Shown here: positions 41,635 to 57,829 of the stretch, in pieces | How positions within the stretch are numbered: position 1 is the first letter of the stretch | Layout of the letters: every line of letters starts with the position of its first letter | NCBI RefSeq assembly: GCF_004217095.1 | Contig: NZ_SHKO01000004.1 | Coordinates: forward strand, 248,001-312,000 | DNA length: 64,000 nt | Source of the DNA: Advenella incenata | GTDB taxonomy: Bacteria > Pseudomonadota > Gammaproteobacteria > Burkholderiales > Burkholderiaceae_B | Reading direction: 5' to 3' | Translations under genes and position numbers: made by a program | Notes under the pieces: model-generated | Database searches by the model: none | Told to the model about the DNA's origin: nothing | What the model saw: only the letters and a program-made list of their open reading frames with translations

Positions 41635-41877
41635 ATGAGCACTAAAGGGCAATCACTACAAGATCCTTTCCTGAACGCGTTACGTAAAGAACATGTTCCC
41701 GTTTCCATTTATCTTGTAAATGGAATCAAATTGCAAGGGCAAATCGAATCCTTTGACCAGTACGTCGTCTTGCTACGCAATACGGTAACGCAAATGGTCT
41801 ACAAGCATGCTATTTCTACAGTTGTTCCCGCAAGGGCCGTCAGTTTCCAAATTGACGCACCAGCTGAACAGGAATAA
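41635..41877 (+). CDS. hfq: RNA chaperone Hfq
   Basis: Hfq forms a hexameric ring that pairs small RNAs with mRNAs. The 80 residues hold the full Sm fold: [15 protein letters not shown] (Sm1), [20 protein letters not shown], and the Sm2 YKHAIST. The intrinsically disordered C-terminus is short. ATATGGAGCC precedes the ATG. A terminator-like hairpin follows before hflX. Confidence 0.98.
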
Positions 41878-50816: not shown

Positions 50817-53300
50817 ATGACCAAATCCAGTAGTAAACCAACTCCTTCGAAGACAGCAGTTAAGAAAGTGACCGCAAAGTCTTCTTCGAAAACCACAGCA
50901 CCAGCCAGTTCTGCCCTGAAAAAAGGCAAAACGGTGCCAGCAGAGACTAAGGCAAGTCCTTCAGTGAAAAAAACGGCGGCTTCAGGCAAAGTCAGTAAGG
51001 CCGCCAAACCGGAAATGAATGTGAAAGATACTGCTGCAAAAGTAACCAAGTCAGCGCCTTCGGCTAAACCCGGGACAAAGGCACCGGCCAGCAAAACGGC
51101 GACAGCTGCGCAGGCAGAAGCCAAAACTGTAAAAACGGTCGCAGCCAAAACGGCATCGGCCCGTCCTGCTGCCCAAAAGGCTCCGGCCAAAACGGCTGCG
51201 TCCAAAACAGCACAGGCAAAAGCTGACGTGGATGACACGGACTTCGATCTGGACGACACCGATCTGGATCAGGAAAAAGCCGGGAAGCGCAAGCCCAAGG
51301 TAGGAACAGGCCGCAAGCCTGGTCGTCCGTCAAAAAACAAAAGCAATGACGAAGATGATGAATTCCTCGAATCCGAAGATGGCGAAGTAGAAGAAGTGCC
51401 CGATTTCAAGCCGGCCAAGCGCGGCAAACGTGGTGCGAAAGATGCCAAAGAGGTATCAAGTCGCGGCCCGGTCTCGCCTGAAGAACAGGAAGCGCGCCGG
51501 AACCGTCTCAAACTGCTTATCAAGCTGGGCAAGGAACGGGGCTACCTCACCTACGGCGAAATCAATGACCATCTTCCCGATGATCTGGTAGATGCAGAGG
51601 CCATTGACGGCATCATCAGCACCTTCAGCGATATGGGCATCTCCGTCTATGACCAGGCGCCCGATGCAGAGGCGCTGCTGCTGAGCGACAACGCGCCCGT
51701 AGCGTCCTCCGACGACGACGTGGAAGACGAAGCCGAAGCTGCGCTCACCACGGTAGACTCCGACTTTGGTCGCACTACCGACCCCGTTCGCATGTATATG
51801 CGCGAAATGGGCACGGTCGAGCTGCTGACGCGTGAGGGCGAGATTGAAATCGCCAAGCGTATTGAGGAAGGTCTCAAGCACATGGTCATGGCCATTGCTG
51901 CCTGCCCGACAACGATTCAGGAAATTCTGAACCATATCCAGCGCGTTCGCGATGGCCAGGCGCAGATTGATGAAATCGTTGATGGCCTGGTCACCGAAGA
52001 CGGCGAAGAATATGCCGGTTCAGGCGTACAGGAAGAAGACGAGAGTGACGACGGCCCGGCCGGCGGCATGAGCAGCAAGCAGCTGGAAATGCTGCGTCAA
52101 CAGGCGCTGGAAAAATTCGACTCCGTTGAAAAATGGTTCGGCAAAATGCGCAGTGTTTACGAACAGGGCGGCTACCGTACACCAGATTACATTCGCTCCC
52201 AGGAAGCTATTCTTGAGGAACTGATGGGCGTGCGCTTTACAGCCAAAATGGTCGAACGCCTTGCAGACACGCTGCGTAACCAGGTTGAGGAAGTGCGCCA
52301 GCTCGAACGCGCCATTTTGCATACCTGCGTGGATCGTGTCGGCATGCCACGTTCTTACTTTATTAAAGTATTTCCTGGTCAGGAAACCAATCTGAACTGG
52401 GTGCAGGAAGAAGTGAACAAGAACGCTGCTTACGCAGAAACGCTTGAGCGCTCCATTCCTGATATCCATGAAATTCAGCAAAAACTGATCGACCTGGAAA
52501 ATGCAGTTGTTCTGCCTCTCAAAGATCTGAAAGACGTGAACAAGCGCATGGTTACCGGTGAAGCCAAGGCCAAGAAAGCCAAACGCGAAATGATCGAAGC
52601 CAACTTGCGGCTGGTTATCTCTATTGCCAAGAAATACACCAACCGTGGCCTGCAGTTCCTTGACCTGATTCAGGAAGGCAATATCGGCCTGATGAAAGCC
52701 GTGGACAAATTCGAATACCGTCGTGGCTACAAGTTTTCTACGTACGCCACATGGTGGATTCGTCAGGCCATTACGCGTTCAATCGCCGACCAGGCGCGCA
52801 CGATCCGTATCCCGGTTCATATGATTGAAACCATCAACAAGATGAACCGTATCAATCGCCAGATTTTGCAGGAAACAGGCACCGAGCCTGATCCGGCAAC
52901 ACTGGCGCAGAAAATGGATATGCCGGAAGAGAAGATCCGCAAAATCCTCAAAATCGCCAAAGAGCCCATTTCCATGGAAACGCCGATTGGTGATGATGAC
53001 GATTCGCATCTGGGCGACTTCATCGAAGACAATGCCACACTGGCGCCATCAGACAATGCGCTGTATGGTTCCATGCGCGATGCCTTCAAGGAAGTGCTCG
53101 ACTCTCTGACGCCACGCGAAGCCAAAGTGCTGCGTATGCGTTTTGGTATCGGCATTAGTTCGGATCAGACGCTGGAAGAAGTGGGCAAACAGTTTGACGT
53201 AACTCGTGAGCGGATCCGTCAGATAGAAGCCAAGGCCCTGCGCAAGTTGCGTCATCCAAGCAGAGCTGATAAACTTAAAAGCTTTCTTGAAAACCAGTAA
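50817..53300 (+). CDS. rpoD: primary sigma factor RpoD with long Lys/Ala-rich N-terminus
   Basis: The housekeeping sigma-70, 827 residues from the ATG at 50817, larger than the 613 of E. coli. Residues 1 to about 140 are a low-complexity Lys/Ala/Thr/Pro stretch resembling histone H1-like tails, followed by an acidic patch ([16 protein letters not shown]). The canonical parts follow: region 1.1 ([20 protein letters not shown]), 1.2 ([20 protein letters not shown]), a large non-conserved domain, 2.3-2.4 ([20 protein letters not shown]), 3, and 4.2 ([20 protein letters not shown]). A TTG five codons upstream is an alternative start. Confidence 0.97.
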
Positions 53301-53404
53301 TTAAATTTGCCGGTCGCGCGTGAGTATTTGAAGAAATACTTGGCGTTAGTTAGACGCTAGCGCAGCCGCATTTAAATTGTAGTTAGCAAGAAAAAAGCCG
53401 GAAA

Positions 53405-53457
53405 TTGGCCGCATCTGTCAGGTGTTTTATACACAAGGTAGTCTGACAGGCGGCCAA
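53405..53457. terminator. long stem-loop after rpoD
   Basis: TTGGCCGC plus CTGTCAG (53405-53421) pairs with CTGACAG plus GCGGCCAA (53443-53457) with a small internal bulge. The loop is about 21 bases. The T-tail is missing, so it may be an RNA-processing or weak termination element between rpoD and the tRNA. Confidence 0.45.
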
Positions 53458-53468
53458 AATAATGGATA

Positions 53469-53545
53469 CCCCCTGTAGCTCAGTTGGTTAGAGCAGAGGA
53501 CTCATAATCCTTTGGTCGCTGGTTCGAGTCCAGCCGGGGGGACCA
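53469..53545 (+). tRNA. tRNA-Ile2 (anticodon CAU), CCA encoded
   Basis: A full 77-base cloverleaf: acceptor arms CCCCCTG / CGGGGGG (one T-G pair), D arm GCTC/GAGC, anticodon loop CTCATAA with CAT at 53503-53505, T arm GCTGG/CCAGC, then A and an encoded CCA. A CAU anticodon could be Met, but the anticodon-to-T-arm part (TTTGGTCGCTGG) matches the isoleucine tRNA whose C34 becomes lysidine and reads AUA; elongator Met tRNAs differ there. Its 3' end abuts an integrase remnant, so it is a likely island attachment site. Confidence 0.85.
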
Positions 53546-53574
53546 GAGAAAGCTTTTAGAATCAATAAATTAGC

Positions 53575-53769
53575 CGCTTGCTTAAGCGGCTTTTTTGTTG
53601 TCTGTTTCGCCACCGTGACTAAATCGTGACTGTATTTCGCTGGCCGTGACATATTGGCAAGATGACCGACATCCAAATGGGCATACTTCTGTACCATTTC
53701 GATCGTCTCCCAGCCACCCAATTCTTTCAAAACCATGAGCGATGTGCCGGACTGAACATGCCGGCTTCC
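53575..53769 (-). pseudogene. C-terminal remnant of a tyrosine recombinase (phage/island integrase)
   Basis: On the minus strand the reading GTSLMVLKELGGWETIEMVQ followed by KYAHL is the C-terminal core of phage-type integrases, with the catalytic Tyr in QKYAHL. The upstream Arg-His-x-x-Arg boxes are missing: the frame before it (KGDRYAAIAVLIGSRHVQSG) looks as if an internal deletion joined two parts, and no full gene is present. The frame has no stop before the tRNA. The ends given are approximate. It shows that an element once integrated at the tRNA-Ile2 gene. Confidence 0.75.
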
Positions 53770-53879
53770 TATCAACACAGCTATCGCAGCATATCGATCT
53801 CCCTTGCCACGACGGGAGCTTGACGCGAGTATCTTTGCCCTGGACAAGGAGTGGCAAGACGGCCTAGCCGAGTGAGCTA

Positions 53880-54215
53880 TTAAATCGCGGCAGCTTCGGC
53901 TATTACGTTCGCCGCCCATTGATTCAAACTCACTCCTGATGCCTGCGCCGCTAGTGCAGCGGCTTGGTGTGTTTCCGGAGAAACGCGTAGGACGAACTTG
54001 CCGGAGAACTGTTTTTTCGGTTCAATGCCGCGTCTCTCGCATTCTTCCAAGAAGATGCGCAAGGAGGTTTTTGCTTCCTCTTTGAGAGTCGCTACATCGG
54101 TGGCGTAAAAGTCTGCGCCGCCGTTCAGGTCGACAAACTCCCCACGAAACATTTCTGTTTCGGGATCGAAGGAAATGACGGCTTTGTAGCCGTCGATATT
54201 CAAAATGTTGTTCAT
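53880..54215 (-). CDS. hicB: HicB-family antitoxin
   Basis: A 111-residue antitoxin. The N-terminal HicB-like domain (YKAVISFDPETEMFRGEFVD) is a degraded RNase-H fold that binds the toxin. The C-terminal ribbon-helix-helix (FVLRVSPETHQAAALAAQAS and SLNQWAANVI) binds DNA. It overlaps the toxin gene by 4 bases (ATGA). It would neutralise HicA and repress the hicAB promoter. Confidence 0.88.
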   Translation of the reverse strand: MNNILNIDGYKAVISFDPETEMFRGEFVDLNGGADFYATDVATLKEEAKTSLRIFLEECERRGIEPKKQFSGKFVLRVSPETHQAAALAAQASGVSLNQWAANVIAEAAAI

Positions 54216-54496
54216 GGTTTAACTCCGTTTTCTTCAAGCCATTTTCTGATGCTTGCCACTGCTCCTTTATCGACGTCCGGGGAGGGGTGGGGCTTGTGTA
54301 GGACTCGGACTTGATCGAACAGGAATATCGCGACCCTTGATCCCTCTCGCTCTGTTACCTCGCCGCCAAGTTCTGTGAAAAGAGTCAGCAGATCGAGCCA
54401 TTTAACTCCTGCTGGGGTGGGTCTCGAAAAGATCAGTTGAAGGGTTTTGCTATGCTTCGATTTTATGCAATAAATGATACTAAAATATAGTATCAA
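54212..54496 (-). CDS. hicA: HicA-family mRNA interferase toxin
   Basis: The core of this ~80-90 residue protein reads SKHSKTLQLIFSRPTP, WLDLLTLFTELGGEV, EREGSRVAIF and VRVLHKPHPSPD, and it ends KWLEENGVKP. This is the HicA double-stranded-RNA-binding-like fold with the catalytic-type His in LHKPHP. The start is unclear. The only in-frame NTG is a TTG at 54496, which would make the first residues overlap the operator palindrome. Relatives start at the residue before KSKH, but here that codon is ATA (54466-54464). The toxin may therefore be poorly translated or silenced. Confidence 0.8.
   Translation of the reverse strand: MILYFSIIYCIKSKHSKTLQLIFSRPTPAGVKWLDLLTLFTELGGEVTEREGSRVAIFLFDQVRVLHKPHPSPDVDKGAVASIRKWLEENGVKP
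54476..54494. promoter_or_regulatory. operator-like palindrome at the hicA start
   Basis: GATACTA and TAGTATC form a perfect 7-bp inverted repeat around AAATA. It sits at the 5' end of hicAB, where the HicB ribbon-helix-helix domain is expected to bind and repress its own operon. Confidence 0.55.
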
Positions 54497-54517
54497 AATA
54501 AATATGTTTTTATAAGA

Positions 54518-54545
54518 CGCTCCAAGCGCTGGGGCGGCTTTTTTT
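54518..54545 (+). terminator. intrinsic terminator-like hairpin 1
   Basis: CGCTCC pairs with GGGGCG (one T-G pair) around AAGCGCT, then GC and seven T. No plus-strand gene precedes it within this region. Confidence 0.6.
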
Positions 54546-54729
54546 AACCACTGTCGCGGCCGCTTTCAATGTTCCTTGATCAATTGATCTGATAGTTATT
54601 GAAGATGCATTTTTGCTACGTGCGAAATAAAACCTCAGCTAAGGCTAAGATGATTAAGCTATGTGAACTTCACTGCTAATTCATCGCCTTTTCAGCTGTA
54701 TCCCAATAGAATTCTGATGTGCGAATGAT

Positions 54730-54883
54730 ATTCACCTATCCATCGTACTTTTCGCCTCGGTCGTAACGGCCGGGGCTTTTTTGCATACGTTGCTCGTGCT
54801 CGTTTCCCCTGATAAGCAATGCAGTAATAAACATGTAATATTTCAAAACGCAATGTTATAAGTAAAAAAACGGATAGGTGAAT
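54730..54883. repeat. 12-bp inverted repeat in the gene-poor region
   Basis: ATTCACCTATCC (54730-54741) and GGATAGGTGAAT (54872-54883) are exact reverse complements 130 bases apart. Each lies a short distance upstream of its own terminator-like hairpin, so separate RNAs from the two segments could pair with each other. Confidence 0.6.
54754..54782 (+). terminator. intrinsic terminator-like hairpin 2
   Basis: GCCTCGG pairs with CCGGGGC (one T-G pair), followed by six T. The 12-mer ATTCACCTATCC lies just upstream at 54730-54741. Confidence 0.65.
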
Positions 54884-54893
54884 GCATTGCGTT

Positions 54894-54917
54894 GCCCTGG
54901 CTTCGGCCGGGGCGTTT
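54894..54917 (+). terminator. intrinsic terminator-like hairpin 3 with TTCG tetraloop
   Basis: GCCCTGGC pairs with GCCGGGGC around the stable tetraloop TTCG, followed by GTTT. The T-run is short. GGATAGGTGAAT lies just upstream at 54872-54883. Confidence 0.55.
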
Positions 54918-55108
54918 CGTATGGGCGTTTATCATTGTTCCGTAATTGATTGCACAGCCGACAGAGTGTAATCTATTGCCGCCCTGTGGGGCCGCAGCCC
55001 AGGCGCAGGCGTTTCCTTGCGTTAACATTTATTAAATTGACCCCCTCAAGCCCAAAGTGCTAATTTGAATGTGTGCACAGGCTCTGCTCAAGAGAACCCA
55101 CTGGGCAC

Positions 55109-55141
55109 CGCCCCGTTAATGTCCTTTTCGGGGCGTTTTTG
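55109..55141 (+). terminator. intrinsic terminator-like hairpin 4
   Basis: CGCCCCG and CGGGGCG form a perfect 7-bp stem around a 13-base loop, followed by TTTTT and a further T-rich tail. Confidence 0.65.
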
Positions 55142-55313
55142 TTTTTGGGGCTACTATGTAACAGCAACAAACCCAGGTTGCCAGCGATGGTACAGATTCA
55201 GAAGCCAGCAACAACACGCGCCTATGCCCCATGTGGGAAGGCAGCTGTATTTCAAAATTAGCACTGTTAAAATCCAGCTCGTTGTACACAACATAAATTC
55301 TTATGGAATGACC

Positions 55314-55676
55314 ATGAAATACATAGGCGCGTGCCACTGCAATGCAGTCAGATTCGCATTCGATGCAGACATTAATGAAGTGGTTAGCTGTAACTGTACG
55401 TTGTGTTCCAAGCGCGCTGCCCTCATGCTTTCCGTTCAAATGGAAAGCTTTGACGTCACTGGTGGTCGGGAGGGGATGCGGGAGTATCGCTGGAATACAG
55501 GAACAGCTCGACACTATTTCTGCGGACAGTGTGGAATCTATATATTTCATCAACGCAGAAGCGATCCGTCGATGCTCAGTGTTAATGCAAATTGTGTGAT
55601 AGGGTTGGACATACAAGGTTTGCCAGTACGGCATGTCGACGGCAAAAGCAGATCCGAAGCACAGCAAGCCAACTGA
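55314..55676 (+). CDS. GFA-family zinc protein (glutathione-dependent formaldehyde-activating-like)
   Basis: A 120-residue protein of the GFA fold. Its zinc-binding cysteines appear in GACHCNAVRF near residues 5-14, CNCTLC near 31-36 and FCGQCGIY near 77-84. Family members bind structural and catalytic zinc; most are of unknown function despite the name. I take the ATG at 55314 because relatives begin with MKYIGACHC; an ATG two codons earlier is possible and the longer upstream frame is not conserved. Two more GFA genes lie at the right end of the window. Confidence 0.82.
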   Translation: MKYIGACHCNAVRFAFDADINEVVSCNCTLCSKRAALMLSVQMESFDVTGGREGMREYRWNTGTARHYFCGQCGIYIFHQRRSDPSMLSVNANCVIGLDIQGLPVRHVDGKSRSEAQQAN

Positions 55677-55847
55677 AGGCAGACCGGCTATCCCGTGGTA
55701 TCACGGTGGTTCGCAAAGGCCCCTTAATGGAGGCTATCCGGGCCAGGCTGCTGGATCGAGCCAATTGGATGCAGGTTGCACAAGCTTAGTCGCTTTGAGG
55801 CCAATTGGGTAATAGTTACATTCCCTCAGACGGGTCTATTTCGCTTT

Positions 55848-56177
55848 CTATCCCAACTCATGGGTCTGGCGATCGCAGCTTGACATCGTTCGGACGCTGC
55901 CATGTGGCCGTTTGTCCAGCGATGTACCTTCATCATTGATTTTGAAATGCTGGGACTTATTCTGTTCGCACAGTTCCAGGAATGCGGTATCAAGGGCGAA
56001 ATGGTCTGCTTCGAACGCTGATTCATACACCGTTACGGTGCCGCCACTGTTGAGATAAAACTTGAATATATCGCCTTGCACCGACGGCATTGTATATTGA
56101 GGCCCATTCCGATACCTCCCAACAAATAGATTAGGCGACCGGGTCAACTGCTGATTAGCCCATTGAAAGAAATTCAC
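55848..56177 (-). CDS. hypothetical protein, 109 residues
   Basis: I do not recognise a family. The protein starts NFFQWANQQLTRSPNLFVG and has a central hydrophilic beta-rich part (GDIFKFYLNSGGTVTVYESA). It has no signal or membrane segment. The GTG start at 56177 has AAGGAGATGTA directly upstream, a strong ribosome-binding site, which supports it as a real gene. It lies alone in the accessory region between GFA and the broken repeat copy. Confidence 0.5.
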   Translation of the reverse strand: MNFFQWANQQLTRSPNLFVGRYRNGPQYTMPSVQGDIFKFYLNSGGTVTVYESAFEADHFALDTAFLELCEQNKSQHFKINDEGTSLDKRPHGSVRTMSSCDRQTHELG

Positions 56178-56223
56178 TACATCTCCTTGTTCAAGTAACC
56201 ACTATACACCGTTCTCACCAGGC

Positions 56224-56249
56224 AAAAAAAACCAGCCGTCAAGGCTGGT
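56224..56249 (-). terminator. intrinsic terminator downstream of the broken repeat copy
   Basis: On the minus strand ACCAGCC TTGAC GGCTGGT is followed by seven T. It would end minus-strand transcription coming from the pseudogene at 56366-56546. Confidence 0.75.
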
Positions 56250-56365
56250 AAATCACCCAAACAACAGGTGAGGAGACAGGCCAATTATAAGGCCTGGCGG
56301 GATCGGGGATATTCAAGGATCGTTAATTTTCTGAGTGCTTGCTGCCAGGCACAACAGGGCGCCCA

Positions 56366-56546
56366 GCATATGCCTTTTGGAAAAATCAATCCAGTCCTGG
56401 CAAAATTGAAGAGCATCGAGGTGAGCGATACCTGTCGATGGGCGCCTGTCTTGCATATGTGTTCTCCATAGTCATCGTAGAAAGCTTCCGTAGAGGCATT
56501 CCATTCGGGAGGAGGGGATTTCTTGCTTGCCGATTGTCTGGCAATG
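56366..56546 (-). pseudogene. truncated, frameshifted copy of the hypothetical gene at 62244-62612
   Basis: This 181-base segment matches 62396-62577 closely in the same orientation, including the stretch CATTCGGGAGGAGGGGATTT. One A of the CGAAGG run is missing here (CGAGG), so the frame is broken. The N-terminal start and the C-terminal third of the intact gene are absent. It is the left member of a pair of direct repeats around the CoA-transferase module. Confidence 0.85.
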
Positions 56547-56602
56547 GTAACGGTCTGCGGAGGCTGCTGTTTTGCTAGCCCCGACAGACTTATAAAAACA
56601 AT

Positions 56603-57829
56603 TCAGATTACACGTTCGGTGCGTAATTGCTCGAGTTCCGACATGCCATATCCCAGCAGCCTTCGGTATAGTTCCTGATTATGTTCTCCCACAGCGGGTG
56701 CTGCACTCGAAATCTTGCCCGGTGTTCGGGACATTTTGGGAACAATGCCTTGCATCCGTAGGGGCCCTAACTTTGGATGCTCGATAGTCACAATATTTTC
56801 TCTCGCCTTGTATTGTGGATGCTTTGCTATATCCTCTATGGTTAACACAGTCGAAAAGGGAATGCCATTGGCTTGCAGGGCCTCGTGAACTTGTTGAGCT
56901 GGCGTATTTTTCATCCAATCGGCAACAATCTGATTTAGTTCCTCAATGTGACCAAACCTAAGCTCGTGATTGGCATAGCGCGGATCGTCAGTCATTTCCT
57001 GCTTCTCCATTGCAATACACAGTCGTCGAAAAAGAGTGTCTCCTGATATCGTCATGATGGTATATCGTCCATCGGAGGTCTCAAAGGTGCTTCCGGGTGC
57101 CGCTCCAAAATGTACATTTCCCGTGCGCTCCCGAATTAAACCAAGCTGATCGAATGCAGCAACCATTGAATCGCTGAATCGGAACATGGATTCATAGAGC
57201 GCAAGATCAATCTGCTGGCCTTCACCGCCGCGCACATCTCTGTAGTATAGTGCCATCATAACGGAAAAGGCGCCCATTAATGCAGTTGAATAGTCAGCGA
57301 TGGATGTGCCAACGCGTACCGGAGGGCGATCAGCAAATCCCGTCATTCCCATCACACCACTGAATGCAAGACCTATCCTATCGTATCCAGCTCGGTTTGC
57401 AAGTGGTCCACTCTGGCCAAATCCCGAAACGCTCAGCATGATCAGGCGGGGATTGACGCCCGACAAATTTTCATAGTCAAGATTCCATTTCTCAAGTGTG
57501 CCGGGCCTGAAATTTTCCACGACCACATCGACCTCTTTGACTAGTTTTCGCAAGATTTCTTGTCCTCGTGCTTGCCGCAGGTCAAGCGTGATAGATTTCT
57601 TATTCCGTCCATCCACGTTCCACCATAGACTTTCGCCTTTTGAGAATGGACCTACGCCACGAATTGTATCGCCGACACCTGGCTGTTCTACTTTAATGAC
57701 CTCAGCACCAAAGTCTGCCATCAGTGTGCCCGCGACCGGACCAGCAATCATTGTTCCGAGATCTAGGACTTTGATCCCAGCCAGTGGGCCAGCTGACTCC
57801 GAGAGTGCTTGTTGTTTATCATTCGACAT
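56603..57829 (-). CDS. CaiB/BaiF family CoA transferase
   Basis: A 408-residue class III CoA transferase. GIKVLDLGTMIAGPVAGTLM near 18-37, VVVENFRPGTLEKWNLDY near 102-119 and the catalytic Asp in SIADYSTALMG (about residue 179) are all present. Such enzymes move CoA between carboxylic acids, for example formyl-, succinyl- or carnitinyl-CoA. It lies after the Bug gene (11 bases) and the crotonase gene on the minus strand. AGGAAATAATT precedes the ATG. It likely activates the acid captured by the Bug receptor (inference). Confidence 0.9.
   Translation of the reverse strand: MSNDKQQALSESAGPLAGIKVLDLGTMIAGPVAGTLMADFGAEVIKVEQPGVGDTIRGVGPFSKGESLWWNVDGRNKKSITLDLRQARGQEILRKLVKEVDVVVENFRPGTLEKWNLDYENLSGVNPRLIMLSVSGFGQSGPLANRAGYDRIGLAFSGVMGMTGFADRPPVRVGTSIADYSTALMGAFSVMMALYYRDVRGGEGQQIDLALYESMFRFSDSMVAAFDQLGLIRERTGNVHFGAAPGSTFETSDGRYTIMTISGDTLFRRLCIAMEKQEMTDDPRYANHELRFGHIEELNQIVADWMKNTPAQQVHEALQANGIPFSTVLTIEDIAKHPQYKARENIVTIEHPKLGPLRMQGIVPKMSRTPGKISSAAPAVGEHNQELYRRLLGYGMSELEQLRTERVI

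Follow-up and report, generated by a model that had tools for sequence, protein, structure and literature searches.

Comparison of a 64,000-nucleotide stretch of the Advenella incenata genome (the window) with related genomes revealed two families of putative small RNAs of opposite sense, A and B, which correspond to the second and third of four hairpins in a stretch without genes. It is probable that the A copies are siblings that block translation of mRNAs for a family of Hint-domain proteins, and that B is a decoy for A, which would free the Hint mRNAs. All conclusions on A and B are based on sequence comparison in one genus, in which the two units appeared with conserved structure, complementary cores and a match to the putative target site, in the same genomes as the Hint family.

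Hairpins in the gene-free stretch

The first-pass annotation had described four plus-direction hairpins without a preceding ORF and had proposed an array of four small RNAs. All four hairpins were recovered by a hairpin scan and are real (Table 1), and no plus-strand ORF of at least 40 amino acids exists in 54500-55060; in the ORF listed from 55065, the GFA domain is found only from about 55320 onward. On both strands of 53000-57000, 13 terminator-like sites were detected, versus 4.3 (sd 2.0) in shuffled sequences. A consensus scan for sigma-70 promoters found none in the hairpin stretch and two in the whole 4 kb, where 5.1 were expected. The array itself was reduced to two to three units rather than four.

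Table 1. Positions of the hairpins, candidate small RNAs and neighbouring features in the window
Feature	Position	Strand	Details
hfq, candidate chaperone gene	41656-41841	+	PF17209, 103.2 bits
tRNA gene (CAT anticodon) and integrase C-terminal match	53469-53919		3' part of tRNA gene overlaps the match, on opposite strand
hicB and hicA genes	53880-54496	-	Pfam
Inverted repeat GATACTA-AAATA-TAGTATC	54476-54494		Just inside hicA start
Hairpin 1 with T-run	54518-54545	+	Stem 54518-54536, tail GCTTTTTTTA; hairpin scan; fold z -1.36
Possible -10 of A, TAGAAT	54707-54712	+	No clear -35; not reported by consensus scan
Unit A, sRNA-like	54713-54788	+	R1 match 73.7 bits; fold z -4.77
Hairpin of A, GTGCGA..TCGTAC	54719-54748	+	Loop core ATTCACCTATCC, 54730-54741
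Terminator of A with T-run (hairpin 2)	54754-54776	+	10 pairs, tail TTTTTTGCAT; hairpin scan
Possible -10 of B, TAATAT	54836-54841	+	No clear -35; not reported by consensus scan
Unit B, sRNA-like	54838-54923	+	R2 match 83.1 bits; fold z -2.13
Stem of B, CGCAATG/CATTGCG	54849-54855/54885-54891	+	Encloses GGATAGGTGAAT, 54872-54883
Hairpin of B, weak T-tail (hairpin 3)	54893-54914	+	9 pairs, weak tail TTTCGTATGG; hairpin scan
Unit C, sRNA-like, weaker evidence	55037-55144	+	Fold z -1.87; terminator 55109-55135
Upstream elements of C, TTGACC/TAATTT	55037-55042/55061-55066	+
Hairpin 4 as scanned	55118-55137	+	Tail TTTGTTTTTG
Inverted repeat CACGCGCCTATG/CATAGGCGCGTG	55215-55226/55322-55333		Around GFA gene start
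Hint gene 3'-end remnant, 30 codons	55697-55786	+	25/30 residues identical to L129:7743-8942 protein

Hairpin 1 is not supported as a conserved unit: it was left uncovered by every DNA match in the 10 genomes of the genus, and it adjoins the hicA start and an inverted repeat, the latter possibly an operator of hicB/hicA. Further upstream, the region with the tRNA gene and the weak integrase match (E-value 0.00034, below the Pfam cut-off) resembles the border of an old island.

The stem of hairpin 4 is better taken as CGCCCCG (55109-55115) with CGGGGCG (55129-55135). This hairpin looks like the end of a third putative small RNA, C, for which the evidence is weaker than for A and B. Relatives of C were found at four loci in four of the 10 genomes (the window, G003, G006 and G007); the match in G003 covers the terminator only, and one of the four loci is degenerate. 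A search for targets of C through its terminator loop (AAAGGACAT before ATG) gave 40 rows versus 21 for the reversed pattern, and this pattern is unspecific, because it is also present in genomes without C.

The annotation had further noted a 12-base complement upstream of hairpins 2 and 3 and had suggested an RNA and its sponge. The complement is exact. Taken alone it was rejected as significant, because 500 of 2000 sequences simulated for the 649-nt stretch with a first-order Markov model contained at least one 12-nt inverted repeat; two further perfect 12-nt pairs lie within 3.2 kb around ATTCACCTATCC and GGATAGGTGAAT. The inverted repeat around the GFA gene start is likewise of a kind that arises by chance. 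Support for the RNA/sponge idea comes instead from the comparison of genomes, since hairpins 2 and 3 belong to separate recurring units with complementary, near-invariant cores and a likely common target; hairpins 1 and 4 fall outside this support.

Two recurring units with complementary cores

A DNA search with 54480-55320 matched six of the 10 genomes of the genus, its own included, in separate blocks. Some of these blocks are repeated elsewhere in the same genomes, and the repeats centre on hairpin 2 (A) and hairpin 3 (B). Covariance models of A (R1) and B (R2) were run over 268 genomes of the family (10 of the genus and 258 others), which yielded 15 copies of A (at least 38 bits) and nine copies of B (at least 50 bits). 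Every one of these copies lies in one set of six Advenella genomes, and both units are present in each of the six.

Each A copy is composed of a hairpin (GUACGA/UCGUAC) with the core in its loop, followed by a terminator. The core TCACCTATC is present in 14 of the 15 copies, with a drifted core in one copy (G007), and longer loop sequences are also shared (the 12-mer AUUCACCUAUCC in 10/15, TCACCTATCC in 13/15). The reverse complement of the loop resembles a Shine-Dalgarno site. In B, the core GATAGGTGA is found in all nine copies, and the stem CGCAATG/CATTGCG surrounds GGATAGGTGAA in all nine.

Pair counts were made on alignments that had been fitted to the covariance models. In A, 96.2% of cells were paired and 21 cells were changed on both sides, a count that none of 500 shuffles reached, while further pair types were close to the shuffled value (13 vs 12.2); nearly all of the pair-change signal lies in the terminator, and the first stem contributes one pair changed on both sides. 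For the first stem of B, all cells were paired, with the outer pair G-C in five copies and A-U in four; two pairs were changed on both sides, which 102 of 500 shuffles reached, so that the pair counts of B are only partly above shuffles.

The near-invariance of the inverted repeat GTACGA-N18-TCGTAC in A, together with the weak promoter matches, would also fit conserved DNA sites, such as operators of a dimeric regulator, with the following hairpins being incidental. We regard this as very improbable: the terminators stand at fixed distance and keep their own stems by compensatory change, the asymmetric core matches Hint leaders, and the stem of the window A is kept by a G-U pair, which is meaningful for RNA only.

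With regard to possible promoters, TAGAAT lies within 20 nt upstream of the hairpin in 8/15 copies of A, and GTAATAT no more than 25 nt before the stem in 8/9 copies of B. Upstream sequences vary from one group of copies to another. An inverted repeat like AAGGGTTATCCCT was observed upstream of six of the nine B copies (L030 and L040; also L026, L032, L035 and L088). At L030 and L040, B begins 180-195 nt past an operon for an ABC transporter (matches to PBP_like_2 and ABC_tran in L030), which we take to be pst. A role of B as a coding leader was unsupported, with an ATG directly after the core in the window copy only.

Distribution of A and B

Copy numbers of A and B are three and two in G000 and G003, two and two in G004, three and one in G006, and two and one in G007 and G008; the genome of the window, which is one of these six, carries three copies of A and two of B. 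At the above strengths, neither unit was found in the 258 other genomes of the family, in searches that apply stricter filters above 40 genomes and lose some weak matches. At an E-value of 0.01, R1 matched 51 of the 268 genomes, 45 of them with weak matches only (the best outside Advenella 34.6 bits, and one of 27.4 bits in Advenella genome G002). We inspected 24 weak R1 loci; four of them (L053, L057, L061 and L064) are cut by a contig end, and three of these four (L053, L061 and L064) were covered incompletely.

An Rfam scan of five weak R1 loci outside Advenella identified four as RF02278. These loci (L048, L050, L051 and L058, in other genera of the family) match 'Betaproteobacteria toxic sRNA' at 66-70 bits and carry TCTCCTCCACCCTCCTCCTTTGGTGGATTT and a terminator; an anti-Shine-Dalgarno-like small RNA had come up through R1. 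RF02278 (PMC4603805) shares with A the layout of a short RNA in which a pyrimidine-rich hairpin precedes the terminator, and the scan placed it in other genera of the same bacterial family. Membership of A in RF02278 was rejected, since the gathering score is 50 and the window A reached 17.9 bits and the L029 A 17.5 bits; scores as high were obtained with unrelated Rfam families. At gathering scores, Rfam 15 gave no match for A or B in the window and five loci with copies.

Advenella belongs to Alcaligenaceae. A pattern scan for A in contigs of named genomes, a set that may omit the window's own or very near records, found four loci, only in A. kashmirensis W13003, Advenella sp. FME57 and Advenella sp. 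S44; the contigs of A. kashmirensis W13003 carry B as well. The window and G003 share the order A, B, C; in G004, A lies next to B and C was not detected. The four genomes of the genus without A and B are the small ones (2.6-3.3 Mb), so the common presence of A, B and Hint may follow phylogeny. A mobile origin was considered and rejected, as no A pattern was found in viral contigs, no plasmid match was obtained and no Hint relative was seen in viral contigs.

Hint genes and their leaders

In the six genomes, the pattern GATAGGTGAN{0,12}ATG occurred in 38 rows, compared with five for the reversed pattern. Eighteen of these are starts of Hint genes (for example CAACTTTTATGGATAGGTGAATAATGGC), one is the window B, and 19 are inside other reading frames; the 19 rows are 17 places, two of them listed twice with different gap lengths, and for L122, L123 and L125 the enclosing frame was taken from the locus midpoint and not from the site. 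One type of Hint leader carries TTTTATGGATAGGTGAATAATG. The putative target family has a Hint_2 domain (PF13403; E-value = 1.9e-39, 5.7e-40 and 7.1e-37 for three members).

By tblastn, the Hint family is present within the genus in exactly the six genomes (of 10) with A and B. The Advenella set comprises 33 rows in 30 loci, and 29 genes after L159, a fragment without start, was left out. The sequence GATAGGTGA precedes the start in 18 of these 29 genes but in one of 16 homologue starts from genera without A and B (P-value = 0.00035, Fisher test, with genes treated as independent although many are orthologues); the single exception is in G097, again with GATAGGTGA. At an E-value of 1e-10, the family was found in 15 of the 268 genomes, nine of which belong to three other genera without A or B; outside Advenella there were 28 Hint rows among the best five candidates per genome, and 16 of the 28 were examined. 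Across the 268 genomes, therefore, every genome in which A and B were found has Hint genes as well, but the reverse does not apply, as some genomes have Hint genes and neither A nor B.

Of the 11 Advenella starts without the site, four have GGATGAGTAA, GGAAAAGTAA and GGATAGATGA are found in one each, and five are divergent. Among these 11 are Hint genes that stand tail to tail with an A copy: in G000, G003 and G006, about 280-310 bp separate one A copy from a GGATGAGTAA-type Hint gene that ends towards it. Five of six A1-type copies are 8-9 kb from a site-bearing Hint gene. An A variant for GGATGAGTAA leaders was sought with a pattern allowing one mismatch and rejected; the two hits in the six genomes both had one mismatch and were both in G004. 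In the region L127:2872-7834, a glycosyltransferase-like gene and a Capsule_synth gene come after a Hint gene, perhaps indicating a surface role.

The relatives do not show the hairpins to be ends of deleted protein genes, although the Hint remnant lies about 0.6 kb downstream of them. In G003 the nearest Hint ORF is about 2.2 kb from the A-B pair, and Hint genes may formerly have been neighbours of the window array too. The remnant, as well as the shortened loop of the window B, could mean that the window copy is a relic, inactive here beside a decayed Hint gene while the units work elsewhere in the genome. Stem, core and terminator are intact in both window units, and such a relic seems decidedly unlikely.

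Pairing of A with Hint leaders and with B

Both tested A copies are perfectly complementary to the 18 site-bearing Hint leaders over 9-15 nt, and the B copies are identical to them over 9-17 nt (B1) and 9-12 nt (window B). The cofolding gain of the G000:C2 A with the 18 leaders was -5.6 to -13.7 kcal/mol (mean -8.6); 102 other leaders averaged -2.7, and six of them reached the weakest of the 18. The window A had the same mean (-8.6 kcal/mol), and its weakest value (-3.5) was reached by 32 of the 102 background leaders. Site-less Advenella Hint leaders (nine of 11 cofolded) averaged -4.2 and -4.3 kcal/mol with the two copies, and those from other genera (12 of 16) -3.2 and -3.7. These energies are not independent evidence, because the 18 leaders were chosen by motif.

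Across genomes, 95 of 135 A-B combinations share a perfect complement of at least 12 nt, and 126 one of at least 9 nt. Six combinations gave cofolding gains of -8.4 to -12.8, compared with -1.3 to -4.7 for six control leaders of the window. Because the cores hardly vary, A could not be seen to covary directly with its partners.

These complements, 12-14 nt in most combinations, are as long as those between A and Hint, and A copies persist beside site-less Hint genes. Both features could indicate that A and B, as real small RNAs, mainly control each other (for example by mutual degradation) or that A has other main targets, with Hint mRNAs being minor. This appears unlikely, because Hint genes alone have clean starts that carry the 9-nt site, and A, B and the Hint family are common to the same genomes. 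A looser pattern for further targets (RGATAGGT..ATGRC; 38 rows vs 20 reversed) added none: the 13 non-Hint loci inspected were all in other frames.

Proposed circuit and known systems

We propose that A, once transcribed, presents an anti-Shine-Dalgarno sequence in its hairpin loop, with which it would pair over 9-15 nt with the ribosome-binding site of Hint_2 mRNAs and so block translation. B, carrying the same sequence as these sites, would act as a sponge that pairs with A and frees the mRNAs; having the sense of the target, it cannot pair with Hint mRNAs via its core but can pair with A. Binding by Hfq or another chaperone is usual for trans-acting small RNAs in Gram-negative bacteria. The hfq gene, reported earlier as present, lies in the window, and we infer that Hfq might help A and B to pair. 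Since the copies differ in upstream sequence, several signals could feed each arm.

A more far-reaching version is a closed RNA circuit of two mirror-image multi-copy families, an anti-ribosome-binding-site repressor and a decoy mimicking that site, dedicated to one Hint family and gained or lost together with it within the genus. Each copy would respond to a different signal, the A:B ratio would set the output of Hint paralogs, and paralogs with altered leaders would escape. We put this forward tentatively, as a somewhat doubtful extension.

We assign A and B to a functional class only. Like trans-acting small RNAs, A has a conserved seed (TCACCTATC in 14/15 copies) matching mRNAs encoded elsewhere (18 Hint leaders), and like sponges, the core of B is the complement of a small-RNA seed and mimics its target. 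The working principle is already known. SisA-D (alphaR8) of Caulobacter are described as sibling RNAs with unrelated promoters and one anti-Shine-Dalgarno-like core, neutralised by the complementary RNA CrfA (PMC12559287). A and B resemble them in the common core of the siblings and in the complementary partner. As far as that account goes, they differ in that A and B are both multi-copy and only Hint targets were found, whereas the Caulobacter system is presented with one sponge RNA and broad targets (PMC12559287). No sequence relation was seen (no Rfam match). AgvB of E. coli O157 is reported as a phage-derived anti-sRNA that mimics an mRNA substrate of the core-genome small RNA GcvB (PMC4104026). 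B would likewise be a decoy mimicking the mRNA sequence bound by a repressor, but A showed no link to phages or plasmids, and B adjoins A in three genomes. LhrC1-5 of Listeria, a multi-copy small RNA blocking translation of a surface-protein mRNA, is similar to A as a proposed multi-copy translation blocker; it differs in its CU-rich sites and phylum, and a matched decoy is unmentioned in the abstract (PMC4132741). Titles and opening parts of abstracts on sponge and sibling small RNAs, LhrC, anti-sRNAs, Alcaligenaceae small RNAs, Hint domains and Advenella small RNAs contained no description of the A and B RNAs or of the Hint target family, which we have not found in print; full-text matches for Advenella small RNAs came to two papers, in each of which the genus is mentioned a single time.

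Should the proposal hold, sponges would not have to be by-products or weapons of phages, and a repressor could evolve together with its decoy as a pair matched to a single protein family. Alcaligenaceae would also gain an example of an RNA circuit, and the Hint_2 proteins studied here a regulator that can be tested.
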